This document shows positions 9,494-63,765 of a stretch of 64,000 bases of DNA, one piece after another. This DNA comes from Halopseudomonas salina (GTDB taxonomy: Bacteria; Pseudomonadota; Gammaproteobacteria; Pseudomonadales; Pseudomonadaceae). Positions within the stretch are counted from its first letter, which is position 1. The number at the start of each line of letters is the position of its first letter. The stretch spans positions 688,207 through 752,206 of the forward strand of contig NZ_VTTI01000001.1 of NCBI RefSeq assembly GCF_008641105.1. The letters run 5' to 3'. The position numbers and the translations under genes are program-made. The notes beneath the pieces were generated by a model. It had not been told where the DNA came from. It was given only the letters and a program-made list of their open reading frames with translations, and ran no database searches.

Positions 9494-10897
9494 TCATACG
9501 CTGTAGTACAGATCGTACTCGAGGGGGTGAACGAAGGTGCGCACCTTGATTTCCTCGGCGGCTTTCAGTTCGATGTAGGCATCGATCAGGTCGTCGGTAA
9601 ATACGCCGCCCTTGGTCAGATACTCACGGTCAGCGCTCAGGGACTCGAGTGCTTCTTTCAGGCTGCCACATACCTGCGGGATCTGGTTCGCCTCTTCAGG
9701 CGGCAGGTCATACAGGTTCTTGTCTGCAGCATCGCCAGGGTGGATCTTGTTCTGGATGCCGTCCAGACCAGCCATCAACAGTGCGGCGAAGCACAGGTAG
9801 GGGTTGGCAGCCGGATCAGGGAAGCGTGCTTCGATGCGACGCGCCTTGGGGCTTGAAACGTATGGAATACGGATCGAGGCCGAGCGGTTGCGGGCCGAGT
9901 AGGCAAGCATGACCGGCGCTTCAAAGCCAGGAACCAGACGCTTGTATGAGTTGGTAGCCGGGTTGGTGAACGCGTTCAGCGACTTGCCGTGCTTGATGAT
10001 ACCGCCGATGAAGAATAGGGCAGTGTCAGACAGGCCTGAGTAGCCTTCGCCAGCGAAGGTGTTCTTGCCATCCTTGGAGATGGACATGTGTACGTGCATA
10101 CCGGAGCCGTTGTCGCCATACAGGGGCTTGGGCATGAAGGTAGCTGTCTTGCCGAAGGCATCGGCGACGTTGTGTACGCAGTACTTCAGGGTCTGTACTT
10201 CGTCAGCCTTGGCTACCAGTGTGTTGAACAACACGCCGATTTCATTCTGGCCGGCAGTGGCTACTTCGTGGTGATGGACTTCAATGGTCAGGCCCATCTC
10301 TTCCATCGCATTACACATGGCAGTTCGGACTTCATGATCGTGATCGACCGGTGGAACGGGGAAGTAACCACCCTTTACGGCGGGGCGGTGGCCCTTGTTA
10401 CCGGTTTCGAAGTCGGCATCAGTGTTCCAGGAAGCCTGCTCAGAGATGATCTTGAACATGGAGCCGGAGATGTCCGATTTGAACTTTACTTCGTCGAACA
10501 CAAAAAACTCGGGCTCTGGTCCAACAAATACGGTGTCACCGATACCAGTGGACTTCAGGTATTCCTCGGCGCGGCGAGCAATGCTGCGGGGATCACGCTC
10601 ATACCCCTGCATGGTGGACGGCTCGATAATGTCGCAGACGATGATAACGGTTGGCTCTTCGGTGAAGGGGTCCAGTACCGCAGTGCTGTCGTCGGGCATC
10701 AGGATCATGTCGGAGGCTTCGATACCCTTCCAGCCGGAGATGGAGGAGCCATCGAACATCTTGCCTTCTTCGAAGAAGTCATCGTTCACATCACGGGCGG
10801 GCATGGTGACGTGCTGCTGTTTGCCTTTGGTATCGGTGAAGCGAAGATCAACCCACTTCGCGTCAAATTCTTTAATCAGTTTAACTGTCTTCGACAT
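9494..10897 (-). CDS. glnA: Type I glutamine synthetase
   Basis: GlnA makes glutamine from glutamate, ammonia and ATP as a cytosolic dodecamer. The 467-residue product carries the GS-I signatures [12 protein letters not shown] near residue 50, [18 protein letters not shown] in the ATP-binding region, and the adenylylation Tyr near residue 396 in NLYDLPPEE, so GlnE-type control is expected. GGAGG precedes the ATG at 10897. About 94 bp upstream of the start is a strong sigma-54 promoter with NtrC-type sites behind it. Together with ntrBC downstream on the same strand this forms the classic nitrogen-control block. Confidence 0.98.
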
Positions 10898-10990: not shown

Positions 10991-11006
10991 AGCAAAAGGT
11001 GTGCCA
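10991..11006 (-). promoter_or_regulatory. Sigma-54 promoter of glnA
   Basis: The minus strand reads TGGCACACCTTTTGCT, a near-perfect match to TGGCACG-N4-TTGCW with the GG and GC doublets 10 bp apart. Predicted transcription start is near 10980, leaving a leader of about 83 nt. Confidence 0.88.
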
Positions 11007-51500: not shown

Positions 51501-51597
51501 TGTCCTTGACATTGATGCGGTGAATGATCTTGTTCAGACAGGTCCTTTTCTGTATTCTCGTCGACCCCGCATAAGCAACTTGACCGGAATATTGAAC

Positions 51598-52860
51598 ATG
51601 TCTGATTTGAGAACCGATGCACTCGACTATCATGCCAACCCACGTCCGGGCAAGCTGAGCGTCGAGCTGACAAAGCCTACCGCCACTGCCCGTGATCTCG
51701 CGCTTGCCTACAGCCCGGGTGTTGCAGAGCCGGTACGCGAAATCGCCAAGGACCCTCTCAATGCCTTCAAATACACCGGCAAGGGTAACCTGGTAGCTGT
51801 AATTTCCGATGGCACAGCCATTCTCGGCCTGGGTAACCTGGGTCCGTTGGCCAGCAAGCCGGTAATGGAAGGCAAGGGCGTGCTGTTCAAGCGTTTCGCC
51901 GGTATCGATGTTTTCGACATCGAAGTCGAATCCGAAAGCCCCCAGGCCTTCATCGATACAGTACGTCGCATCTCCTGCACCTTTGGCGGTATCAACCTTG
52001 AGGATATCAAGGCGCCAGAGTGCTTCGAGATTGAACGCGCGCTTGTCGAGCAGTGCAACATCCCGGTCTTTCACGATGATCAGCACGGCACCGCGATTGT
52101 GACTGCCGCGGCGATGATCAATGCGTTGGAGTTGGCTGACAAGAAGCTCGAAGATGCCAAGATCGTCTGCCTGGGTGCTGGCGCTGCGGCCATTGCCTGC
52201 ATGAAGCTGTTGGTCAGCATGGGCTGCAAGGTCGAGAACATTTATATGCTCGATCGCAAAGGCGTGATCCACGCGGGCCGTGATGACCTGAACGAATACA
52301 AGGCCATCTTCGCTACCGAAACTGAGAAGCGCACTCTGGCCGACGCCATGAAGGGTGCCGATGTGTTCGTTGGCCTTTCCGGTCCGAACCTGCTCAAGCC
52401 GGCAGAGCTCAAGCTGATGGCGGAAAATCCCATCGTCTTCGCCTGCTCCAACCCTGATCCGGAAATCGATCCCGAGCTGGCCCATGCTTCGCGTCCGGAC
52501 GTGATCATGGCTACCGGTCGGTCGGATTATCCTAACCAGGTCAACAACGTACTGGGCTTCCCCTTCATCTTCCGTGGTGCACTGGACGTACGTGCTACCC
52601 GTATCAACGAAGAAATGAAGATTGCTGCTGTTCACGCCATCCGCAAGCTGGCCAAGGAGCCGGTGCCGGAGTACGTTTCCGCAGCGTACGGCGGTATCAA
52701 GCTGGAGTTTGGTCGTGAATACATCATTCCCAAGCCAATGGATGTGCGCCTGATCGAGGAAGTGCCGGCTGCTGTCGCCCAGGCCGCCATTGATTCGGGT
52801 GTGGCTACACTGCCCTATCCAGCGCACTACCCGCTCAAGTCGGTAGAAGACTGCAAGTAA
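51598..52860 (+). CDS. maeB: NADP-type malic enzyme (short form)
   Basis: Converts malate to pyruvate and CO2 with NAD(P)H formation in the cytosol. The 420-residue product has [60 protein letters not shown] and the Rossmann motif [17 protein letters not shown]. It lacks the phosphotransacetylase-like C-terminal domain of E. coli MaeB, as is normal in Pseudomonas. ATG at 51598 was chosen on the family N-terminus ([18 protein letters not shown]). A strong terminator follows. Confidence 0.95.
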
Positions 52861-52904: not shown

Positions 52905-53972
52905 TCAGCTGATAGTGTCCGGTGCCTCCAGGGTAATTTCTATCCCATCCTTTTGGGCAGCCAGATCTGCGATAAGCAGGCAGCCTGGCGGGCGATCCGG
53001 ACTCTGTAGCAGCGCATGCGCCACCTCCGGCTCCAGCCACTGACGAAAGCAGCGGGCCATGGCGCGAGCTCCATAGCGACGATCAAAGCCCTGCTCGCCC
53101 AGCCAGCTCTTCAATCCGGGCCTGGCGACAAGTTGCACCTGGTGTCGGGCGAGCCGATTATTCAGTCGCTCCAGTGCGAGCTCGACCAGGACAGTCACTT
53201 GGTCATCGGTCAGTCGCTGATAAATCAATTGTTGATCAATCCGATTAAGAAACTCCGGAGCGAAGGCTTTTTCCAGGGCCAGCTTCTGCTGTTTATGCTC
53301 CTGCTGTGCCCGCCAGTTTTCCGGTAACCAGCGGCGCCAGCTGTTTTGCTGGCGCTGCTGCCAGTTCCAGATTGCCTGCGCGCCAATATTACTGGTCATG
53401 AAAATCAGGCTATTGCGGAAATCCAGTGTGGTAGTGCCGGAGCTGAGTCGCAGCTGACCGTTGTCAAAGATGTTCATCAATGCGCGAGTTACTGGTTCGC
53501 TGGCTTTCTCCAATTCATCGAATAGCACGATGCCCGGTTTGCCAAAACTGCCTTCAATTGCCTCTCGATCAAATAGGGTGTTGCCCTCCTTGCTACCGAC
53601 ATAACCCGGCGGTGCCCCGGTTAATGAGGCAGCGTAATGTTCCTGGGCCAGGGTGTTCATATCAATTCTGCACAGAGCATCTGCCCGGCCGTGAATGGCC
53701 TCTGCGAGCAGGCGTACTGTTTCGGTTTTGCCCACCCCGGTCGGTCCCATGAGCAACATGACGGCCAGTGGCTTGCGGGGGTCGCCCAATTCAGCCTTGG
53801 TCAGAGCCAGGCTCGCCGCTATCGCATCCAGCGCAGCATCCTGTCCGGTAATCCGCGAGCGTAACTGCTGCATGACCTTGTCCAGATCGAACAGGAATCG
53901 CGATTGACGCACGGGCGGCGCGTTGCCGCCCGTGCGCTGGTTGTGCTCGAGCACTTCATTGATAAAGGGCAT
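52905..53972 (-). CDS. amiB: AmiB-type stand-alone Clp/Hsp100 AAA+ ATPase
   Basis: A 355-residue protein equal to the second AAA+ module (D2) of ClpA/ClpB plus its small domain. It shows Walker [14 protein letters not shown] (about 75-87), the pore loop GAPPGYVGSKEG, Walker B IVLFDELEKA, sensor 1 FMTSNIG, the Arg finger APEFLNRID and sensor 2 RYGARAMARCF. No N-domain and no ClpP-docking IGF/IGL loop is seen. It starts 21 bp after amiE (GGAG six bases before the ATG). The P. aeruginosa amidase operon has a Clp-like ATPase, AmiB, directly after amiE, so position and sequence agree. Role in amide use is not known. Confidence 0.88.
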   Translation of the reverse strand: MPFINEVLEHNQRTGGNAPPVRQSRFLFDLDKVMQQLRSRITGQDAALDAIAASLALTKAELGDPRKPLAVMLLMGPTGVGKTETVRLLAEAIHGRADALCRIDMNTLAQEHYAASLTGAPPGYVGSKEGNTLFDREAIEGSFGKPGIVLFDELEKASEPVTRALMNIFDNGQLRLSSGTTTLDFRNSLIFMTSNIGAQAIWNWQQRQQNSWRRWLPENWRAQQEHKQQKLALEKAFAPEFLNRIDQQLIYQRLTDDQVTVLVELALERLNNRLARHQVQLVARPGLKSWLGEQGFDRRYGARAMARCFRQWLEPEVAHALLQSPDRPPGCLLIADLAAQKDGIEITLEAPDTIS

Positions 53973-53993
53973 TACCGACTCCACTCGTCAGCA

Positions 53994-55040
53994 TCATGCG
54001 CCGGCTTCCTTGTCCTTACCCGGATGCGGTAGCTCGCCGACCGGGCAGTCTTTGACGCCGATGGTGCTGCGAGTCATCTTCTCGACATCGTCGCGCGCCT
54101 TTTCTGCGTCCAGAACCCAGGTGCGATAGAAGTCGAATGGGCAATCAGCCACACCACGGTCGCCGTCTCCGGAGTTATACACGCCGGTGTAGCCGCGGTG
54201 CAGAAGCTTGAACAGGTGATTCTGTGACTGATCATTGGCCCGTGCATCGCGGATCTGCGATACCGAGAGCTGAGCGTACTGGATCCCCATGTCCTCTTCG
54301 CCACATTCACCCAGGGTGCGGCCGTCAAAGCCGATAATCGCAGAGTGACCAAAGTAGGAATACACGCCGTCAAAACCGCTGGCATTGGCAACCGCCACAT
54401 AGCAGTTGTTGGCCCAGGCCATGGACTTGGCCATCATTACCTGTTGTTCCTTGGCGGGGTACATATAGCCCTGGCAACGCACAATCAGTTCGGCGCCTTT
54501 CATTGCACAATCTCGCCAGATTTCCGGATAATTACCGTCATCACAGATAATCAGGCTGATTTTCATGCCCTTGGGGCCTTCCGACACATAGGTGCGGTCG
54601 CCGGGATACCAGCCTTCGATCGGGCACCAAGGAATGCACTTGCGGTATTTCTGCACGATCTCACCCTGATCATTAATCAGCACCAGGGTGTTATAGGGTG
54701 CCTTGTGCGGATGTTCCTCGTGTTGCTCGCCTGTGAGTGAAAAAATACCCCAGGTTTTAGCCTGCTTGCAGGCTTCACTGAATATGCGTGTTTCGTCACC
54801 TGGAATGGTCGCCGCGGTGGCCATCATCTCATCGTTGTCGTACATGATGCCCATGGTGCTGTATTCGGGAAACACCACCAGATCCATGCCGGGCAGGCCC
54901 TTTTTCATGCCGATGATCATATCCGCGATGTTGCGAGCGTTAGCCAGCACCTCTTCACGACTATGCAACCGTGGCATCTTGTAATTGACTACCGCGACAC
55001 CCACGGTATCCGGGCTGCTGGAAATATCTCCATGACGCAT
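53994..55040 (-). CDS. amiE: Aliphatic amidase
   Basis: AmiE hydrolyses short aliphatic amides (acetamide, propionamide) to acid and ammonia. The 348-residue nitrilase-superfamily protein follows P. aeruginosa AmiE almost residue for residue, with the catalytic triad Glu59 (VVFPEYS), Lys134 ([10 protein letters not shown]) and Cys166 ([13 protein letters not shown]). GGAGG lies 8 bp before the ATG. It is 33 bp after the sigma-54 activator gene and before amiB, in the same minus-strand run as fmdA, so it is probably induced with formamidase. Confidence 0.97.
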
Positions 55041-55073
55041 TGGTTAATCCTCCGCTTGCTTGGGTTGGGAAGG

Positions 55074-56714
55074 TCAGTTGAGGTCAATCCCCAGTTTGCT
55101 GACCCGATAACGCAATTGTCTGAGGCTCAGGTTGAGTCGTCTGGCCGCCTCGGACTGGTTGTTATTGGTGTCTACCAGCGTCGCGCGAATCTGCGCGGCT
55201 TCATCCTGGTTGACCCAGTTATAGGAACGCCCATAGGGCCGTTGTCCGGGTCCGCTTGGTTGGTATGCTGTTGTTTCGGCTGTTCCGCTGATGCCAGGCT
55301 TCTCGCCGCTGGCATGCTGGGGAAGATTGATTGCACTTTCAGACGAGAGGCTGTGCTTGATTTTTGCGCCGCTTAGCGAGTCCTGGTCACTGGTCAAAGC
55401 CGTGCGCTCGAGGACGTTCTGCAATTGCCGGATATTGCCCGGCCAGTCAAAACGCTCGAGAACCTCGAAGGCATTCGCTTCCAGGCTCCAGTTACGTTCG
55501 TAGTGGTGATTGAGCTCGTTGAGAAAATGCAGCGCCAACTGGCGTATGTCTTCCTGGCGTTCACGCAGCGGCGGTAATTGCACGGGCACGACATGCAGGC
55601 GGTAGAACAGATCCAGACGAAACCGTCCCTGGTTGACGGATTCCTGCAGGTTGACGTGGGTGGCAGTAATCACGCGAAAGTCTACGGAGATGGCGCTGTC
55701 GCTACCTACTGGATCGACCTTTTTCTCCTGTAGTACGCGCAGCAACTTGGCTTGCAGTGCCAGTGGCATATCGCCGATCTCATCCAGAAACAGTGTGCCA
55801 CCATCTGCCTGGACGATCTTGCCTTGCTTGTTCTGCGAGGCGCCGGTGAACGCACCTTTTGCATGACCAAAAAGTTCTGATTCGAGCAGGTCGGCGGGTA
55901 TGGCGGCGCAATTGATGCAGATGAAGGGCTTCTCGCGGCGGTCGCTTTGCTGGTGCGTCATCCGCGCGAATTTTTCCTTACCAGTACCAGACTCGCCGAG
56001 CAGCATTACCGGCGCATCACTGCGAGCAACCTGAATAGTTGCACGCACAGCGTCCATCAGGGCCGGGCTGGTACCCAGGATACCGTGGGCCAGACTCTGC
56101 TTGAGCATGGCTTCGATCGCGATGCTGTGGCGCAGGTGCTGGTTTTCCTTGACCAGGTGAGCGGTTTGATCCACGACAAACTGGTGAATGCGCAGTACCT
56201 GCCCCACCATTGAGGCAGCGATACGCATCAGGCTGATGTCACCATCAAATGGTCTTTCATGCAGGCCTTCGCGCTGAACCGACAGCACACCGATCGGTCT
56301 TCCCGACTCTAGGATAGGCACTGCGATAAAGGTCATCCGTCCACCGGTATGGTTCGACAGCTCCGCAACCCGGTAGATGAATAGGGGCTCCTTGTTAACA
56401 TCCGGGACCAGGCCGATCGAGCCGGTGCGCATGACGTAGCCGGTCACACCCTGATTGATATTGAGAGTAAATCGACCGGCTTTGAGATCCTCTGGGGATA
56501 ATCCGTAGGAATAGCGCACCTCCATGGTGTTGGTCGCCGCCACGGGCAGGCTGACTCTTCCACAGTTGAGGCCATACAGCTGCGAAAGCAGACGAAGGAT
56601 CCCCTGTATGGTTCGAGGAGCATCCAGTGGCTTTTCCAACAACTTGGCCATTTCCAGAATCACGACCAGTTCACGCTTCATCTGCTGGGCTGTCCCATCG
56701 GGCATGGTTATCAC
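55074..56714 (-). CDS. GAF-domain sigma-54-dependent activator of the amide genes
   Basis: A 546-residue enhancer-binding protein with a GAF sensor (about 20-180), a AAA+ domain with Walker A GESGTGKE (240-247), the sigma-54 loop GAFTGA (287-292) and Walker [11 protein letters not shown], and a C-terminal Fis-type helix-turn-helix (NQSEAARRLNLSLRQLRYRV). Architecture is NifA/NorR-like, without a receiver domain, so it should respond to a small molecule and not to a kinase. I chose GTG at 56714 (AAGGAG 10 bp upstream). Lying between fmdB and amiE, it probably activates the divergent sigma-54 promoters upstream of fmdA and urtA. It is not AmiR. Confidence 0.92.
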   Translation of the reverse strand: MITMPDGTAQQMKRELVVILEMAKLLEKPLDAPRTIQGILRLLSQLYGLNCGRVSLPVAATNTMEVRYSYGLSPEDLKAGRFTLNINQGVTGYVMRTGSIGLVPDVNKEPLFIYRVAELSNHTGGRMTFIAVPILESGRPIGVLSVQREGLHERPFDGDISLMRIAASMVGQVLRIHQFVVDQTAHLVKENQHLRHSIAIEAMLKQSLAHGILGTSPALMDAVRATIQVARSDAPVMLLGESGTGKEKFARMTHQQSDRREKPFICINCAAIPADLLESELFGHAKGAFTGASQNKQGKIVQADGGTLFLDEIGDMPLALQAKLLRVLQEKKVDPVGSDSAISVDFRVITATHVNLQESVNQGRFRLDLFYRLHVVPVQLPPLRERQEDIRQLALHFLNELNHHYERNWSLEANAFEVLERFDWPGNIRQLQNVLERTALTSDQDSLSGAKIKHSLSSESAINLPQHASGEKPGISGTAETTAYQPSGPGQRPYGRSYNWVNQDEAAQIRATLVDTNNNQSEAARRLNLSLRQLRYRVSKLGIDLN

Positions 56715-56797
56715 GGAATGCAGGCTCCTTGGATCGGGGACGAACTGGCCCCCTGTGGCCTGCGTCTTGGGCGTGCACCGGCTAGCTTGCGTTTAGC

Positions 56798-57127
56798 TCA
56801 GTGACTGATCATCCACGGACGTCGCGGACCACTCTGTTGCTTCAGGGGTGGTGGCTGCCCTTCGGCGCGAGGCTGATGGGTGCATTTACCTGAGCTGCAA
56901 CAACTGTGCCCGTGGCCATGGCTGACTTTTGGTTGATGGGCGCTGCGCTCATTGGTTTCGTGAGCTGTACGCTGCTGGCGACTGAGTACCTGCAGCCGCG
57001 GCGCGCTTATCAGGCGCTGCATGGTCTGCCCGCAGGCGGGGCAGTCACGAGGGAGATTGCGTTCGGCACTGGGTAGCAAGGCTTCAAAAGCGCCACATTG
57101 GGGGCAGTCGAAATCGTATAGGGGCAT
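56798..57127 (-). CDS. fmdB: FmdB-family zinc-ribbon protein
   Basis: A 109-residue protein with the FmdB zinc ribbon: MPLYDFDCPQCGAFEALLP, then CPACGQTMQRLISAP, giving two CxxC pairs. The tail is His/Cys-rich (HGHGHSCCSSGKCTH), which may bind metal. In Methylophilus the fmdB gene lies next to formamidase and is thought to be regulatory or a maturation factor. ATG at 57127 was chosen because the zinc ribbon starts there and the upstream frame is antisense to fmdA. Confidence 0.92.
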   Translation of the reverse strand: MPLYDFDCPQCGAFEALLPSAERNLPRDCPACGQTMQRLISAPRLQVLSRQQRTAHETNERSAHQPKVSHGHGHSCCSSGKCTHQPRAEGQPPPLKQQSGPRRPWMISH

Positions 57128-57197
57128 AATGTGCTCTCTAACTGTGCGCTCAAGGGGGTGGCCGCCGCACCAAAATGGATACGACGGCCTGACCGAA

Positions 57198-58427
57198 TCA
57201 CTTATTCCATTTCGAGGTCGGTACTTCCGGGCTATTGACCGAGATCGTCGGGCCATCTGCGTTTGGCATGATGTCGAAGTCGAATATTTCGGTGGGAATC
57301 CACAGGGTGGCGCATACGTTGGGCACATCGACAATGCCACTGATGTGACCCTGGACAGGTGCAGTACCTAGCAATGAATAGGCCTGGGCGCCGCTGAAGC
57401 CGAATTTCTTCATATATTCGATGGCGTTCAGGCAGGCCTGGCGGTAGGCCACGTGGGCATCGAGATAATGTTGCTTGCCACTTTCATCAACAGAAATACC
57501 CTCGAATATCAGGTGCTTCTTGTAGCTTGGTGCCATGTCGCTGGGCTGGAAAATGGGGTTTTTCACGCCGTATTTCTTCACGCCATCCTTGATCAGATTG
57601 ACCCGGATGTGGATCCAGCCAGCCATTTCAATGGCGCCACAGAAAGTGATCTCACCGTCGCCCTGGGAGAAGTGCAGATCGCCCATCGACAGTCCGCCAC
57701 CTTTGACATAAACCGGGAAGAACACACGTGACCCCTTGGTCAGGTCCTTGATGTCGCAGTTCCCGCCGTGCTCCCGAGGTGGCACGGTGCGGGCGCCTTC
57801 GTTGGCAATCTTTGCGGCTACATCGCCTGTGGCGCGACCGGTATGGGCAGTGGGTGCGTAGGGCGGGTTGGCGAGACCTGGCACGCGATCCGGGTCGGTA
57901 TCGATAAGGGCCTGTTCGCGTTTGTTCCATTCATCAAGCAATTCCTGGGAAGGCAAACAACCAATCAGGCCGGGGTGCATCAGGCCGATGAACTCCACAC
58001 CGGGAATATGCCTGGACTTGGTGTAGATGCCATTGAAGTCCCAGATGGTCTTGCGCGCTTCCGGGTAGTGCTCTGTCAGGAACCCACCGCCGTTTTCCTT
58101 GGCAAATACGCCGTTGAAGCCCCACATCTGGTCGGCAAAGGCTCCCAGGTCGAGGATATCCACGACCATCAGGTCGCCGGGTTCTGCACCTTCTACTGCA
58201 ACCGGGCCGCTAAGGTAGTGCACCTTGCTCAGGTCCACGTCGCGCACGTCATCGGCACTGTCGTTATTGGCAATCTGCCCGCCGGTCCAGTCCATGCACT
58301 CGATTATGAAGTCGTCACCTGGCTTGACTGTCGCTACCATCGGCACATCGGGATGCCAGCGGTTATGGATGGTGTCGTGCTCCTTCGGGCTCTTGCTCAG
58401 ATCGATCTTGATCAATGTCTCGGCCAT
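57198..58427 (-). CDS. fmdA: Formamidase
   Basis: FmdA hydrolyses formamide to formate and ammonia. The 409-residue protein belongs to the FmdA_AmdA (acetamidase/formamidase) family and matches Methylophilus-type FmdA: NRWHPDVPMVATVKPGDDFI, VHYLSGPVAVEGAEPGDLMV, ENGGGFLTEHYPEARKTIWD, REHGGNCDIKDLTKGSRVFF and SMGDLHFSQGDGEI. AGGA lies 9 bp before the ATG at 58427; an earlier start was rejected because it lies before the predicted transcript start. It heads the run fmdA-fmdB-activator-amiE-amiB from a sigma-54 promoter. Confidence 0.96.
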   Translation of the reverse strand: MAETLIKIDLSKSPKEHDTIHNRWHPDVPMVATVKPGDDFIIECMDWTGGQIANNDSADDVRDVDLSKVHYLSGPVAVEGAEPGDLMVVDILDLGAFADQMWGFNGVFAKENGGGFLTEHYPEARKTIWDFNGIYTKSRHIPGVEFIGLMHPGLIGCLPSQELLDEWNKREQALIDTDPDRVPGLANPPYAPTAHTGRATGDVAAKIANEGARTVPPREHGGNCDIKDLTKGSRVFFPVYVKGGGLSMGDLHFSQGDGEITFCGAIEMAGWIHIRVNLIKDGVKKYGVKNPIFQPSDMAPSYKKHLIFEGISVDESGKQHYLDAHVAYRQACLNAIEYMKKFGFSGAQAYSLLGTAPVQGHISGIVDVPNVCATLWIPTEIFDFDIMPNADGPTISVNSPEVPTSKWNK

Positions 58428-58491
58428 GACTGTGAATCCTCTGTGTGGGTGATGGCAATCGCGGCCAGATTCTGGCCAGTCATGATCCCAG

Positions 58492-58507
58492 AGCAGATGA
58501 CGTGCCA
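58492..58507 (-). promoter_or_regulatory. Sigma-54 promoter of fmdA
   Basis: The minus strand reads TGGCACGTCATCTGCT, one mismatch (C for T in the -12 box) from TGGCACG-N4-TTGCT. Predicted start is near 58481, 54 nt before the fmdA ATG. Confidence 0.8.
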
Positions 58508-58595
58508 GCTTTGTCATTAAAAGTAAAAATCGTTAATAATCAATGCGATATAAAGCAATAGTCAATTAATGTCAGCTTCTGGCTGCCACTGGATG

Positions 58596-58640
58596 TGACA
58601 ATGTCAGATCTATCGGCTGGACATTGTCATGACAATGTCA
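58596..58640. promoter_or_regulatory. Triple TGACAATGTCA operator between the divergent amide genes
   Basis: Three copies of the quasi-palindrome TGACAATGTCA: 58596-58606, 58619-58629 (inverted, GGACATTGTCA) and 58630-58640. The last two abut and make a perfect 20 bp palindrome, GACATTGTCATGACAATGTC. Centres are 23 and 11 bp apart. They lie about 100 bp behind the fmdA promoter and 135 bp behind the urtA promoter, a suitable enhancer position for both. The remaining parts of this 439 bp gap (58508-58595 and 58641-58773) are AT-rich and hold nothing else I can support. Confidence 0.7.
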
Positions 58641-58773
58641 GGTCCCGTTGGCGTGGGTAGATGAAGTCCAGCCCTGCGCTTTACGGCTCCCTAATCTGGT
58701 AGCGCGCATAGGTTGCTGATATTTATGGATTTATATCCATCAGCTAATAATTTTATGGATGACCTTGGCATGC

Positions 58774-58789
58774 TGGCACAAGGGTTGCT
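58774..58789 (+). promoter_or_regulatory. Sigma-54 promoter of urtABCDE
   Basis: TGGCACAAGGGTTGCT matches TGGCACG-N4-TTGCT at all but one position. Predicted start is near 58800, about 67 nt before the urtA ATG. Confidence 0.85.
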
Positions 58790-58866
58790 CAGGGTGTGTT
58801 GACAGGTAGACAAACCGTTCAGCGGATTTGCTTGCCGGTTTTACCCACATCTAGGAGATTCACCCT

Positions 58867-60111
58867 ATGCAAGAATCGATACGCAAGATGCCAGCCTGGA
58901 AGCGCCACATGCTGGCGCTGGCGCTGGGCACGGGTTTGGGCGTGACCGGGATTGCCGGCGCTGCCGATTATCCGACCGATAAGGTTAATACCACCGGCCT
59001 GGCGGTTACCGATGACACTGTCAAGGTCGGTATCCTGCACTCCATTACTGGCACCATGGCCATCAGCGAAACGGGTTCGGTCGAAGCAGAAATGCTGGCC
59101 ATCGAGCAGATCAACGCGATGGGCGGCGTTCTAGGCCGCCAGATCGAGATCGTGCAGGAAGATGGCGCCAGTGACTGGCCCACCTTTGCCGAGAAGTCCC
59201 GCAAGCTGCTGACACAGGACAAAGTAGCCGCCGTTTTCGGATGCTGGACATCGGCTTCACGCAAAGCAGTTCTGCCTGTATTCGAGAAAGAAAACGGGAT
59301 GCTCTATTACCCGACGTTCTACGAAGGGCTTGAGCAATCCAAGAACGTAATCTACACAGGCCAGGAAGCAACCCAACAGATTCTTGCCGGCCTGGACTGG
59401 ATAGCTGAAGAGAAAGACGCCAAGACGTTCTACCTGGTCGGCTCTGACTATATCTGGCCACGTACTTCCAACAAGATCGCCCGCAAGCACATCGAAAATG
59501 TACTGGGTGGCACCGTGGTTGGCGAGGAGTACTACCCACTGGGCAACACCAACTTCGGTTCGCTGATCAACAAGATCCGCCTGAAGAAGCCTGACGTGGT
59601 GTACTCCAGCATCGTCGGGGGTTCCAACGTTGCCTGGTGGAAGCAGTTGAATGCGGCTGGTATCACCGCTGACCGTCAGACCATCATGACCATCTCCGTA
59701 ACCGAAGACGAAGTATTGGGCATTGGTGGCGAGAACATGGTGGGGTTCTATTCCTCCATGAAGTATTTCCAGTCGCTGGAAAACGACAACAACTCCGAAT
59801 TTGTGAAGGCGTTCAAGGCTCGCTGGGGTGAAGACAGCGTGATTGGTGACGTTACTCAGGCTGCCTATCTCGGTCCCTGGCTGTGGAAAGCGGCTGTAGA
59901 AAAGGCCGGCAGCTTTGACGTCGATGCTGTTTCAGCAGCTTCACCGGACATCGAACTGACCAGCGCGCCTGAAGGCTACGTGAAGATTCACGGCAACAAT
60001 CACCTCTGGAGCAAGCTGCGCGTCGGCGAATGGCAGGCAGACGGTCAAGCCAAGGTGGTTTACGAGTCTGAGCTGATCGAGCCAAACCCCTTCCCCGAAG
60101 GTTATCAATAA
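58867..60111 (+). CDS. urtA: Urea/short-chain amide ABC transporter, substrate-binding protein
   Basis: A 414-residue periplasmic binding protein with a long signal peptide (ending about IAGAAD at residue 36). The body is of the UrtA/FmdD/AmiC-like amide-binding branch: VKVGILHSITGTMAISETGS, INAMGGVLGRQIEIVQEDGA, VFGCWTSASRKAVLPVFE, GMLYYPTFYEGLEQSKNVIY. Sequence alone does not separate urea from formamide or acetamide; the fmdA/amiE context favours short amides, and fmdD would then be an equally valid name. AGGAG precedes the ATG. A stem-loop follows the stop. Confidence 0.92.
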   Translation: MQESIRKMPAWKRHMLALALGTGLGVTGIAGAADYPTDKVNTTGLAVTDDTVKVGILHSITGTMAISETGSVEAEMLAIEQINAMGGVLGRQIEIVQEDGASDWPTFAEKSRKLLTQDKVAAVFGCWTSASRKAVLPVFEKENGMLYYPTFYEGLEQSKNVIYTGQEATQQILAGLDWIAEEKDAKTFYLVGSDYIWPRTSNKIARKHIENVLGGTVVGEEYYPLGNTNFGSLINKIRLKKPDVVYSSIVGGSNVAWWKQLNAAGITADRQTIMTISVTEDEVLGIGGENMVGFYSSMKYFQSLENDNNSEFVKAFKARWGEDSVIGDVTQAAYLGPWLWKAAVEKAGSFDVDAVSAASPDIELTSAPEGYVKIHGNNHLWSKLRVGEWQADGQAKVVYESELIEPNPFPEGYQ

Positions 60112-60139
60112 GTCCCTCCCATTAGCGTAAGTCAATATC

Positions 60140-60163
60140 GGTGCGGTCCTTGTTGACCGCACC
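60140..60163 (+). other. Stem-loop between urtA and urtB
   Basis: Perfect 9 bp stem GGTGCGGTC / GACCGCACC with CTTGTT loop and no T-run. Such a structure can protect the urtA part of the mRNA and give more binding protein than permease. Confidence 0.6.
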
Positions 60164-60186
60164 GTTTCGAATCGAGGAGAGAGAAC

Positions 60187-61110
60187 ATGGGCGGATATTC
60201 CTCGCAGGAACTCACGGCCATTTTTGTCATGCAGGGGTTCAGTGGGCTTAGCCTGTTCTGTGTTTTCCTGCTGATGGCACTGGGTCTGGCGATTATTTTT
60301 GGACAGATGGGTGTTATCAATATGGCTCACGGGGAGTTCTTGACCCTGGGCGCCTATATCACCTGGTTGGTGTCTGTACTAGGCACCGAAATCTGGCCAT
60401 GGATGGAGCACATCTATTTCCCCATTGCCATTCTGGCGGCTTTTACGGGGACATTCATTCTTGGCTACTTCGTCGAACGGCTCATGATTTGCCGATTATA
60501 CAAGCGCCCACTGGATACGCTGCTGGCAACCTGGGGCTTGGGGCTGATCATGCAGCAGGCTTTTCGCTCCGGTTTCGGTCCGCGGGAAGTGAGCGTCAAT
60601 CTTCCTCCGTGGTTGATGGGCTCCTGGGCTCCCACCGATATCATCGATATCCCGGTTAATGGCATGTTCGTGATGGTCGTCACCTTCTTCATTACCCTCG
60701 GGGTTGCCTTGCTACTGTACAAGTCACGCTGGGGCATAAAGGTGCGCGCTACTACTCAGAACCGTGCCATGGCCAATGCGGCGGGCATCAATACCCAGCG
60801 GGTGGACCGTTTCACTTTCGCACTGGGTTGCGGAATTGCCGGTGTTGCTGGAGCCGCTTTCACCACGATTGCTTCAACCGGCCCGACTACGGGGTCACTG
60901 TACATCGTCGACACCTTCCTGGTTGTGGTCTTCGGTGGTGCTGCAAGCATTCTGGGTACCGTGGTCTCAGCATTCGGCATCGCTCAGTCGCAATCGATTA
61001 TGGAGTTTTTCCTCAGCGGTTCCATGGCCAAGGTTATCACTCTCACGGTCGTGGTCGGCATTCTGATGGTTCGTCCCCAGGGGCTCTTTGCAAGCAAGGT
61101 ACGCCGGTGA
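60187..61110 (+). CDS. urtB: Urea/amide ABC transporter permease UrtB (LivH type)
   Basis: A 307-residue inner-membrane permease with about eight hydrophobic helices. FLLMALGLAIIFGQMGVINM and AHGEFLTLGAYITWLV are typical of the LivH/UrtB family, and GVNLPPW-type QVSVNLPPWLMG-like and IKVRATTQNRAMANAAGIN segments face the ATPase. It pairs with UrtC to form the channel. GAGGAGAGAG precedes the ATG. The next gene follows after 27 bp. Confidence 0.92.
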   Translation: MGGYSSQELTAIFVMQGFSGLSLFCVFLLMALGLAIIFGQMGVINMAHGEFLTLGAYITWLVSVLGTEIWPWMEHIYFPIAILAAFTGTFILGYFVERLMICRLYKRPLDTLLATWGLGLIMQQAFRSGFGPREVSVNLPPWLMGSWAPTDIIDIPVNGMFVMVVTFFITLGVALLLYKSRWGIKVRATTQNRAMANAAGINTQRVDRFTFALGCGIAGVAGAAFTTIASTGPTTGSLYIVDTFLVVVFGGAASILGTVVSAFGIAQSQSIMEFFLSGSMAKVITLTVVVGILMVRPQGLFASKVRR

Positions 61111-61137
61111 TCGGCGTGCCCGCTGGAGGTTATTGAT

Positions 61138-62274
61138 ATGCACAGATGGATAGCGGCATTTGGGGGAGGTCAACGGCTGCTGCAGCTGCTGGCGTTGGCG
61201 GTCTTACTGCTGGTCATTCTGCCCCTGACCCTGGATATATTCAGGCTCAATCTGTTGGGCAAGTATCTGACCTACGCCTTTGTTGCTGTGGGTCTGGTGC
61301 TGTGTTGGGGCTACGGGGGCATTCTGAGTCTGGGGCAGGGTATCTTTTTTGGTGTTGGCGGGTATTGCATGGCGATGTTCCTGAAGCTGGAATCGTCGGC
61401 TCCGGAATTCACATCGATACAGAGCACACCGGGTATTCCTGATTTCATGGACTGGAACCAGATCACCGAGTTGCCCTTGATGTGGTTACCGTTTCACAGC
61501 CTTACCCTGACCATTATTCTTATGCTTACCGTACCCGCTCTGATTGCCTTCTTTATTGGCTTTGCCATGTTCAAGCGTCGGGTAGGCGGGGTGTATTTCG
61601 CAATCATCACGCAGGCTATTGCCTCAATTGCGACCATTCTTATCGTCGGTCAGCAGGGTTATACCGGAGGTATCAATGGCATTACTGACCTGAGAACGCT
61701 GCTGGGCTGGGATATCCGATCCGATAGTGCGCGCTACATATTGTATTTCGTCTGCTGCGTCGCGCTGATCATTTGCCTTTTGATCGGTCAGTTCGTATTG
61801 GAAAGCCGTTTCGGCAAGCTGCTGATCGCCATGCGCGACCAGGAAGACCGAGTGCGTTTTTCCGGCTACGACGTAGCCAATATAAAGATCTTTGTATTTG
61901 CACTGGCAGCGGTATTTTCGGCTATCGGTGGCGCCATGTTTGCTTTGCAGGTGGGCTTCATGTCGCCTTCCTTCGTAGGCACGGTAGCCTCAATCGAGAT
62001 GGTGATCTTTTGTGCCGTGGGCGGCAGGCTGTCGCTGATAGGCGCAGTATATGGCGCTCTGTTGGTCAATCTGGCCAAGACAATGCTGTCAGAAACCTTC
62101 CCACAGCTCTGGATCGTCTTCATGGGTGCGCTGTTCATTGGCGTGGTTCTCCTCTTCCCTCAGGGACTGGCCGGAATCTATAACGACTTCGTCAGGCCGC
62201 ATTTGTCGCGACTGTTTGGGCGCTCGCAAAGAAAGGCAAGTGAGCCGGGTACTGGTCAGGAGGCACAGTCATGA
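61138..62274 (+). CDS. urtC: Urea/amide ABC transporter permease UrtC (LivM type)
   Basis: A 378-residue permease with about ten hydrophobic segments. LVLCWGYGGILSLGQGIFFG, FKRRVGGVYFAIITQAIASI and RFGKLLIAMRDQEDRVRFSG are LivM/UrtC signatures; the last is the loop that contacts the ATPase. GGAGG lies close before the ATG. The stop overlaps urtD by 4 bp (ATGA). Confidence 0.93.
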   Translation: MHRWIAAFGGGQRLLQLLALAVLLLVILPLTLDIFRLNLLGKYLTYAFVAVGLVLCWGYGGILSLGQGIFFGVGGYCMAMFLKLESSAPEFTSIQSTPGIPDFMDWNQITELPLMWLPFHSLTLTIILMLTVPALIAFFIGFAMFKRRVGGVYFAIITQAIASIATILIVGQQGYTGGINGITDLRTLLGWDIRSDSARYILYFVCCVALIICLLIGQFVLESRFGKLLIAMRDQEDRVRFSGYDVANIKIFVFALAAVFSAIGGAMFALQVGFMSPSFVGTVASIEMVIFCAVGGRLSLIGAVYGALLVNLAKTMLSETFPQLWIVFMGALFIGVVLLFPQGLAGIYNDFVRPHLSRLFGRSQRKASEPGTGQEAQS

Positions 62275-63011
62275 CTTCACCGATATTGTTGGCAATAGAA
62301 GATCTCACGGTTTCCTTTGATGGTTTCAAGGCAGTTGATGGTCTCAACCTTTATGTGGAGCGCAACGAGGTACGTGTTGTCATCGGGCCCAACGGTGCTG
62401 GGAAGACAACCTTGCTGGATCTGATATGCGGTAAGACACGTGCCTCTTCAGGCTCGATCATGTTCAAGAATACCGAGTTGACCAAGCTGGCGGAGAACCA
62501 GATCGTCAAGGCGGGCGTGGGGAGGAAGTTTCAGACTCCTTCGATCTATGAAAATCTGACTGTGCGCGAGAATCTTCAGCTGTCCTACCCCGGCGGGCGT
62601 ACCGTCTTTGGCAGCCTGTTCTTCAAGACAACCGAGCACGTCACACAGCGCGTCTGTGAAGTGGCGGCGGATATTTTCCTAGAGGAGCGGCTGGATGTCA
62701 GTGCGGGCCTTTTGAGTCATGGGCAGAAGCAGTGGCTGGAAATAGGGATGCTTCTTATCCAGGATCCCGAGCTGCTCATGCTTGATGAGCCAGTAGCGGG
62801 TATGAGTGTGCCGGAGCGTGAGGCGACGGCTGACCTGTTACGGCGTATCAGCAATAACCGATCGGTGATCGTGATCGAGCATGATATGGATTTCGTAAAG
62901 GACATCGCCAACAAGGTCACTGTATTGCACCAGGGCAAGCTGCTTGCCGAGGGTAAAATGGATGATGTGCAGAAAAACGAAAAGGTCATCGAGGTCTACC
63001 TGGGCCACTAA
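62271..63011 (+). CDS. urtD: Urea/amide ABC transporter ATPase UrtD (LivG type)
   Basis: A 246-residue ABC ATPase: Walker A VIGPNGAGKTTLLDLICG, KFQTPSIYENLTVRENLQ, signature LLSHGQKQWLEIGML (SHGQK in place of SGGQ, usual in UrtD), Walker B LLMLDEPVAGMSVPE and the switch His in VIVIEHDMDFV. It works with UrtE as the motor pair of the importer. Confidence 0.94.
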   Translation: MTSPILLAIEDLTVSFDGFKAVDGLNLYVERNEVRVVIGPNGAGKTTLLDLICGKTRASSGSIMFKNTELTKLAENQIVKAGVGRKFQTPSIYENLTVRENLQLSYPGGRTVFGSLFFKTTEHVTQRVCEVAADIFLEERLDVSAGLLSHGQKQWLEIGMLLIQDPELLMLDEPVAGMSVPEREATADLLRRISNNRSVIVIEHDMDFVKDIANKVTVLHQGKLLAEGKMDDVQKNEKVIEVYLGH

Positions 63012-63026
63012 CAGAAGGAATCGAAC

Positions 63027-63716
63027 ATGCTGACTGTTCGCGATTTGCACGTAAGTTACGGAATGAGCGAAGTCATCCATGGTATTTCGCTGGATGTCGG
63101 AGCTAATGAAACGGTCGCAGTAATGGGTCGCAACGGCATGGGCAAGACGACGCTGTTCAAATCCCTTATCGGAATGCATCCGAGTAACAGTGGAAGTATC
63201 ACCTTCAATGGCAAGGAGCTGAGCAATGCCCAGTCCTACCAGCGTGTGGCTAGTGGTATCGCATATGTGCCGCAGGGACGAATGGTATTTCCGACGTTGA
63301 CAGTAGAGGAAAATATCATGGCTGGGCTGGAGGCCTCGGGGCGCAAGAAAGTACCGGGGGACATATATGAATTGTTTCCAGTGCTTCTTGAGATGCGTAG
63401 CCGCAAGGCGGGTAATCTTTCCGGTGGGCAGCAGCAGCAACTGGCTATTGGAAGAGCATTGGCTGCTGATCCCAAGATCCTGCTGCTTGATGAACCGACC
63501 GAGGGTATTCAGCCCTCTATCATCAAGCAGCTGGCAAGCACGCTTAACGACATCAAGCACGCGCGCAAAATCAGTATCGTGGTTTCCGAACAGGTGCTCA
63601 GCTTCGCTTTGGCGGTGGCTGACCGGATGCTGGTGATGGACAAGGGCGTCATCGTACATGAGGCAAGTGGCGACCAGATTGACCGGGCGCACATCAGCCG
63701 TTACCTCTCCGTGTGA
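63027..63716 (+). CDS. urtE: Urea/amide ABC transporter ATPase UrtE (LivF type)
   Basis: A 229-residue ABC ATPase: Walker A VMGRNGMGKTTLFKSLIG, signature NLSGGQQQQLAIGRALA, Walker B ILLLDEPTEGIQPSII. The switch position reads VVSEQVLSF, with Gln in place of the usual His, as is common in LivF/UrtE proteins. AGAAGGAATCG lies before the ATG. It is the last gene of the importer, followed by a strong terminator 13 bp after the stop. Confidence 0.94.
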   Translation: MLTVRDLHVSYGMSEVIHGISLDVGANETVAVMGRNGMGKTTLFKSLIGMHPSNSGSITFNGKELSNAQSYQRVASGIAYVPQGRMVFPTLTVEENIMAGLEASGRKKVPGDIYELFPVLLEMRSRKAGNLSGGQQQQLAIGRALAADPKILLLDEPTEGIQPSIIKQLASTLNDIKHARKISIVVSEQVLSFALAVADRMLVMDKGVIVHEASGDQIDRAHISRYLSV

Positions 63717-63729
63717 CCAGCGTGGTCGT

Positions 63730-63765
63730 ACCCTCCACCCGTGAAAACGGGTGGAGGGTTTTTTT
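63730..63765 (+). terminator. Rho-independent terminator of urtABCDE
   Basis: A 13 bp perfect stem ACCCTCCACCCGT / ACGGGTGGAGGGT with GAAA tetraloop and a seven-T run, one of the strongest in the window. Confidence 0.95.

Follow-up and report, generated by a model that had tools for sequence, protein, structure and literature searches.

A formamide and short-amide gene island in Halopseudomonas with a probable sigma-54 switch of its own

A 64,000-nucleotide stretch of the Halopseudomonas salina genome (contig NZ_VTTI01000001.1; hereafter the window) carries an amide-nitrogen island of two divergent arms: fmdA, fmdB, a sigma-54 activator gene, amiE and amiB on the minus strand, and the importer genes urtA to urtE on the plus strand. 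Our reading, which we consider likely, is that the island forms a self-contained regulon for nitrogen from formamide and short amides, in which a local activator, its dyads and two sigma-54 promoters make up a switch that originated with the fmd/urt genes. The island is a known gene set under a different kind of switch, and it is well conserved. The amide operon of Pseudomonas aeruginosa is amiEBCRS, and a preliminary description had proposed that the island kept the amiE–amiB core of such an operon while AmiC, AmiR and AmiS were exchanged for the activator and an ATP-binding cassette (ABC) importer; an exchange inside amiEBCRS is probably not what happened. The genes and strands given there were all confirmed by profile searches, and the open reading frames and profile searches agree that AmiC, AmiR and AmiS are missing from the island and that an importer is present.

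The 439-base gap between fmdA and urtA carries the main evidence. It holds a sigma-54-type promoter for each arm and, between the two, three 11-base dyads of the form TGACAWTGTCA, whose centres lie 23 and 11 bases apart (roughly two turns and one turn of the helix). The start of fmdA is more likely the ATG at 58427 than the mechanical open reading frame start at 58517, the FmdA profile beginning at residue 33; the sigma-54 site therefore falls upstream of the gene. When the gap was aligned in 16 rows (15 relatives and the window), the urtA site was perfect in all 16 and the fmdA site had at most one mismatch in 15, the exception being L114, which bears out the promoter claimed earlier for each arm. 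The mean major-base fraction of the five elements (two promoters, three dyads) is 0.91–0.96, against 0.63 for the 371 other columns, and 3 to 33 of about 450 sliding windows are as conserved as an element, the five elements themselves counted in. Across the window, sequences within two mismatches of the -24/-12 consensus are no more frequent than chance predicts (50 found, 46.75 expected), so the case for the promoters rests on conservation. For the dyads, none of 2000 composition shuffles of the gap does as well as the three found; the whole window has five at up to one mismatch, three of them in this gap, against 0.87, and at most 3, in shuffles. Dyads 2 and 3 occur at this gap in 9/9 sigma-54-type genomes searched and in none of three genomes of the same genus with another layout. 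Which genes are present, what the promoters and dyads look like, how well these are conserved and that they occur together with the activator can all be read directly from the DNA, and the dyads are probably an enhancer for the local activator.

The activator itself has the domains GAF, Sigma54_activat, AAA_lid and HTH_8, the last a Fis-type helix-turn-helix, and carries a GAFTGA motif; the region around it, K286–A292, is invariant among five relatives save at one position. An AAA+ domain with a GAFTGA loop and a Fis-type helix-turn-helix are what defines a sigma-54 enhancer-binding protein, and, as far as sequence goes, -24/-12 targets and a conserved enhancer-like element are present as well. 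Named homologues at 90–96% identity come mostly from Halopseudomonas, with two labelled only Pseudomonas sp. The protein shares with NifA- and Nlh-type enhancer-binding proteins the GAF-AAA-Fis layout, the GAFTGA motif and similarity over most of its length, and its best NCBIfam match is NifA (TIGR01817). It differs from NifA in that its score of 442.6 bits lies below the equivalog cut-off of 528.85, in its operator, which is unlike that of NifA, and in an island without nif genes.

The same switch is found outside the genus. A class-wide search matched at least two of 369 genomes, one being the centre itself and the other, G602, opening a second lineage; in its order, 4/9 genomes have the activator, at 57–59% identity. 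There fmdA-fmdB is divergent from activator-urtABCDE over all that the contigs cover (the whole of L262 and L274, part of L273 and L275), and neither amiE nor amiB turned up in the stretches that were fetched. The activator–urtA gap, reached in three loci, holds a perfect dyad in all of them, with promoter-like sites (one, one and two mismatches) some 105–130 bp downstream, and sites with a single mismatch precede fmdA in L274 and L275. A 2-mismatch sigma-54-like site ending in CCTTGC also precedes the activator in all four loci (L262 8935; L273 2470; L274 10155, minus strand; L275 2244 and 2399), possibly the activator's own promoter. A third lineage, L383, has an activator 45–47% identical, two dyads flanked by a perfect urtA promoter and a 1-mismatch fmdA promoter, and no amiE found in 16 kb.

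How might the switch operate? A hexamer of the activator would bind the three shared dyads midway between the divergent promoters and contact the sigma-54 polymerase at both by looping. Both arms would then be raised together: the importer, expected to bring in amides, FmdA, acting mainly on formamide, and AmiE, acting on acetamide-type amides. Intergenic gaps of 73, 83, 33 and 9 bases make it likely that fmdA, fmdB, the activator gene, amiE and amiB form one transcript, and because the activator gene lies in this operon, downstream of the fmdA-arm promoter, it should reinforce itself. The GAF domain would respond to an amide or a related signal. Its conservation fits a ligand domain and names no ligand: within the genus (L109, L112 and L115), GAF is 80–85% identical and AAA 86–87%; between orders the figures are 51–58% and 65–68%.

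Some observations weigh against this account. The closest solved relatives of the GAF domain are NifA and Nlh1, NifA being the nearest over the full length of the protein, and the cue is not set by the sequence. Two of the nine sigma-54-type genomes (G174, G063) have one further doubled dyad (L268 6187–6208; L269 5990–6011), which precedes a thiolase-like operon that has no good sigma-54 site, so that another protein might use a similar site; in L268 it stands before thiolase-like and multifunctional fatty-acid-oxidation-like genes, names given from sequence only. For lack of a good sigma-54 site we do not claim this operon as a second target. Among the G602-order loci, L262 and L273 lack any site within two mismatches before fmdA on its strand, and L262 has only a 2-mismatch site before urtA, a grade of site that is frequent there (10 in 19.9 kb).

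The likeness to NifA also bears on what the GAF domain senses. Some NifA proteins respond to 2-oxoglutarate or a PII-type signal, and if the GAF domain read nitrogen status in such a way, the island would be a starvation response and not be induced by amides. Both the nearest full-length solved relative and the best, if sub-threshold, NCBIfam match would suit this. So would the fmd system of Methylophilus, which is amide-induced and ammonia-repressed (PMC10781810; here and below, statements on published work refer to the parts of each report that were available). What makes this reading rather unlikely is that the activator travels with amide genes, or with the cyanase-type operon described below, plus its own operator, an association that suits a pathway-specific cue, and that its GAF domain varies more than its AAA domain in the three same-genus comparisons.

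It is also conceivable that NtrC drives both sigma-54 promoters and that the local activator is secondary. Glutamine synthetase is a classic target of NtrC and sigma-54, and besides the urtA site the window has a single perfect -24/-12 match (TGGCACACCTTTTGCT, 10991–11006, minus strand), about 95 bases upstream of a gene (9494–10897, minus strand) that reads as glutamine synthetase, a name taken from the sequence without a family search; since that enzyme is so familiar a sigma-54 target, the site is a fair internal control for our promoter calls. Amides are nitrogen sources, and RpoN-dependent urt genes with a putative amidase are reported from Bradyrhizobium DOA9 (PMC13207237). Against NtrC, the conserved dyads track the local activator. 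Loci of the same family without the activator mostly have no such promoters, sites with at most one mismatch preceding urtA in 2/66, fmdA in 0/75 and amiE in 0/53 that the script could call, and they lack the dyad pair in the three genomes tested. We consider primary control by NtrC improbable, and a switch worked by the local activator remains our preferred reading.

Is the combination of genes itself unusual? Among 348 sampled Pseudomonadaceae genomes, with the best three or four candidates scored per genome so that all counts are lower bounds, the activator occurs in at least 16 (E 1e-170), amiE in at least 77 (1e-120) and fmdA in at least 91 (1e-100). All 16 activator loci belong to one genus, which we take to be Halopseudomonas. 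The divergent order beside a malic-enzyme-like gene is identical in all 15 complete relatives, and the 16th locus, L120, is cut by a contig end. Within the genus, 16 of 37 genomes have the sigma-54 form, eight have another fmdA locus (in seven, urtABCDE-amiE-amiB-fmdA) and in 13 no fmdA match reached the threshold. The 75 fmdA loci of the family that lack the activator comprise 42 with urtABCDE-fmdA-fmdB-amiE (41 of them with amiB), 17 with urtABCDE-fmdA-fmdB, seven with urtABCDE-amiE-amiB-fmdA, seven with fmdA-fmdB-amiE-amiB, one with fmdA alone and one cut by a contig end. Importer, amiE and fmdA thus also stand together in 49 of these 75 loci. The preliminary description had called the island a distinct wiring of amide use, and a search of relatives for its gene order supports this in part: regulator and operator are unusual (16/348, one genus) and the divergent order is constant, but the gene set is common and already in print. 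The combination of importer and amidase is common in the family; the sigma-54 wiring sets the island apart.

The printed case is Pseudomonas veronii Yu15, for which urtABCDE-fmdA-fmdB-amiE is described and amiC and amiR are noted as missing (PMC13209695). Its cluster has the same enzymes and importer as the island and likewise no amiC or amiR, and the available parts of the report do not mention a sigma-54 activator; the strain can draw its nitrogen from acetamide and formamide and also has a plasmid-borne ami operon. Unlike the island, the Yu15-type loci that we fetched have these genes on the same strand; most are accompanied by a divergent hybrid-kinase gene, and most are without sigma-54 promoters. 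Ectopseudomonas guguanensis has urtABCDE with locus tags next to fmdA, beside two-component and LuxR-family genes (PMC13296017). In Methylophilus methylotrophus, fmdCABDEF encodes, as here, a formamidase, a putative regulator and a binding-protein-dependent short-amide importer, whereas its named genes, as far as the available text goes, include the porin gene fmdC and no amiE, amiB or GAF activator (PMC10781810). The island has the fmdA, fmdB and importer of such a system, the amide specificity of its importer being predicted.

But what takes the activator's place in its absence? Of the 66 activator-less loci whose urt set is complete, 60 have beside urtA a divergent gene that falls in one cluster; its tested member (L181) proved to be a hybrid histidine kinase, and no Pfam family matches the first ~670 residues of this one protein. 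These kinases, of about 1125 residues (for example L263 2973–6347 and L265 2878–6255), are candidate amide sensors of the wiring without sigma-54. A response-regulator gene follows the kinase in two (L263, L265) of five loci fetched further out, and none was identified in the other three.

The arrangement that the exchange hypothesis starts from is far less common. Five loci have amiE without fmdA, and two of them (L258, L260) encode AmiC-like and AmiR-like proteins, the L260 AmiC-like protein matching the solved AmiC 1pea with 752 bits; AmiS was identified in L260 only. The order amiE-amiB-amiC-amiR was thus seen in two loci among the 348 genomes. Genome G297 has both arrangements, L247 with urtABCDE-fmdA-fmdB-amiE-amiB and L260 with amiE-amiB-AmiC-AmiR-AmiS, and offers a natural system for comparing the wirings. 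For the source genome, statements that a gene is absent rest on the genomes of relatives: no AmiR_N domain was found in any of 16 related genomes with the island, by a search that finds it in G131 and G297, our positive controls; the 14 control genomes built into it gave no match.

That an ancestral amiEBCRS operon kept amiE-amiB and exchanged AmiC, AmiR and AmiS in place is, on this evidence, highly improbable. The amiE-amiB pair is homologous to the pairs beside the AmiC and AmiR genes of L258 and L260, and, as in P. aeruginosa and L260, the two genes are adjacent here, but the island has no AmiC, AmiR or AmiS next to them, and an antitermination leader would hardly fit into the 33 bases before amiE. 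An amiE next to fmd without AmiC and AmiR, which had been taken for a rare exchange, is the rule in the family, where amiB adjoins amiE in most fetched loci. Moreover, the FmdA tree separates the sigma-54 forms of both orders from the other forms, those of the same genus included (support 99/96), and the UrtA tree gives the same split more weakly (83/75); both trees are unrooted and were built without L383. Since two outside lineages have the switch on fmd/urt and no amiE was found in the stretches fetched from them, amiE-amiB more likely joined an existing fmd/urt unit. Most simply, the sigma-54 fmd/urt unit would be a lineage of its own to which amiE-amiB was joined in this genus; the switch would probably belong to fmd/urt, with amiE-amiB a later addition.

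The activator family extends beyond amides. An order-level sample gave matches in 8 of 390 genomes at E 1e-130, one of them the centre; these counts, too, are lower bounds. Of the seven activators (43–48% identity), one is that of the fmd/urt locus L383, and the six others (L382, L384–L388) lie in another operon, which typically holds an NMT1-type ABC importer, the activator, an OsmC-like protein, an acyl-CoA-dehydrogenase-like flavoprotein, a rubredoxin-reductase fusion and a cyanase. Family searches covered one example per gene (mostly from L385, also L384), the rest being assigned by resemblance, and the L388 stretch is too short to show whether such a cyanase gene follows. In 5/6 of these loci the gap between activator and OsmC holds dyads with at most one mismatch, a result equalled by 0 to 17 of 2000 composition shuffles, and three of the five gaps have promoter-like sites, one with one mismatch and two with two. 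Against a shared operator, L382 has no dyad within one mismatch in two tested gaps, and L384/L386 and L387/L388 look like close pairs, so that the six loci are not independent. An open-access text search for the cyanase-type operon gave a single paper, which concerns 3-cyanoalanine use. We therefore put forward only tentatively, at somewhat less than even chances, that an undescribed subfamily of GAF sigma-54 activators shares TGACAWTGTCA and that each runs an import and hydrolysis module for a one-carbon nitrogen compound. If so, the operator would have stayed fixed while GAF domain and regulated pathway diverged: formamide and short amides here, cyanate (perhaps thiocyanate) through the cyanase–rubredoxin reductase–OsmC operon elsewhere. 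A scan of genome contigs with the activator as query gave generic sigma-54 activators, 37–53% identical, its patterns hitting the conserved AAA core, and its loci served only as a way into whole genomes; a scan of viral contigs gave generic AAA matches and was not used.

The importer is annotated as a urea transporter, all five proteins scoring above the NCBIfam cut-offs for that system, and it could be a true urea importer that only happens to sit here. In Prochlorococcus UrtA, urea is held by Ser122, Gln144, Tyr190 and Asn246, and a change at any one of these residues weakens or abolishes its binding (PMC10392092). We placed these residues by motif and spacing on alignments with 8hic, presumably the structure of that study, and 7s6e. 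In the window UrtA the Ser and the Tyr are kept, while Phe stands in place of Gln144 and Val in place of Asn246. All 44 fmd-linked copies compared (16 of the sigma-54 type including the window, three from the order of G602, seven of the same genus in the other layout and 18 others) have the motifs YPTFYEG and VGGSNV, and so does L383, making 45/45; L383 has them although a urease subunit alpha, which would favour urea, is encoded nearby. Second copies of UrtA, by contrast, of which 14 were found in 18 genomes, kept Gln and Asn in all 12 compared. At the level of sequence, then, the urea grip has been lost in fmd-linked UrtA. The AmiC-like proteins of L258 and L260 have Thr143 and Val246 as the fmd-linked UrtA copies do, and Pro at 144. 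We had expected the paralogous urt clusters beside urease; of the four fetched, L308 adjoins allophanate hydrolase, L311 adjoins urea carboxylase and allophanate hydrolase, and L309 and L310 adjoin neither as far as the open reading frames showed. A urea importer is improbable given that the residues holding the amino groups of urea are replaced in 45/45 fmd-linked copies and that the paralogues, which keep them, adjoin allophanate hydrolase in L308 and L311. The fmd-linked importer probably carries simple amides instead.

The ten genes named in the preliminary description are real and lie about where it had put them, as open reading frames and family profiles agree (Table 1). FmdA scores 765.6 bits against NF045496 (cut-off 500), and its residues 1–395 of 409 match the solved formamidase 2wkn; AmiE scores 713.4 bits against NF009802 (cut-off 427) and only 260.8 against the nitrilase-type formamidase model NF009803, below its cut-off of 406. 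Convergent to amiB is the malic-enzyme-like gene (maeB; 51520–52860, plus strand; named from its sequence), which keeps its place beside the island in 15/15 complete relatives, indicating a fixed chromosomal site in the genus.

Table 1. Genes and regulatory elements of the island, in window coordinates.
Feature	Position	Strand	Remarks
amiB	52905..53984	-	single-module ClpB-D2-type AAA+ ATPase; last gene of fmd arm; AAA_2 and ClpB_D2-small matches
amiE, aliphatic amidase	53994..55040	-	NF009802 equivalog
GAF-AAA+-Fis sigma-54 activator	55074..56714	-	start GTG 56714 or ATG 56705
fmdB, FmdB-type zinc ribbon	56798..57124	-	TIGR02605, Zn_ribbon_8
fmdA, formamidase	57198..58427	-	NF045496; corrected start
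sigma-54-type promoter, fmdA arm, TGGCACGTCATCTGCT	58492..58507	-	1 mismatch
probable enhancer dyad 1, TGACAATGTCA	58596..58606	.	conserved in 16-row alignment; recurs with activator in other lineages
probable enhancer dyad 2, GGACATTGTCA	58619..58629	.	16-row alignment; abuts dyad 3
probable enhancer dyad 3, TGACAATGTCA	58630..58640	.	16-row alignment
sigma-54-type promoter, urt arm, TGGCACAAGGGTTGCT	58774..58789	+	perfect match
urtA-type binding protein	58867..60111	+	TIGR03407, above cut-off
urtB permease	60187..61110	+	TIGR03409
urtC permease	61138..62274	+	TIGR03408
urtD ATPase	62271..63011	+	TIGR03411
urtE ATPase	63027..63716	+	TIGR03410
terminator-like hairpin closing urt arm, 13 pairs and T tail	63730..63759	+	consensus match; 3' of urtE

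Finally, we would like to place the island in the context of what is known about the control of amide use. In the open-access literature we found no account of a sigma-54 activator dedicated to amide or formamide genes, a negative that, being limited to open-access papers, is weak evidence of novelty. The nearest reports that we found are the one on Bradyrhizobium DOA9, with RpoN-dependent urt genes and a putative amidase (PMC13207237), and one that predicts control of urease and urea carboxylase genes by sigma-54 (PMC12316311). In the island and its close relatives, a single metabolic module is found under different switches. It provides a testable operator and regulon for amide use, where AmiC/AmiR is the usual model. 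The annotation 'urea transporter' beside a formamidase gene probably often misnames the substrate, which affects how nitrogen use is read from genomes.

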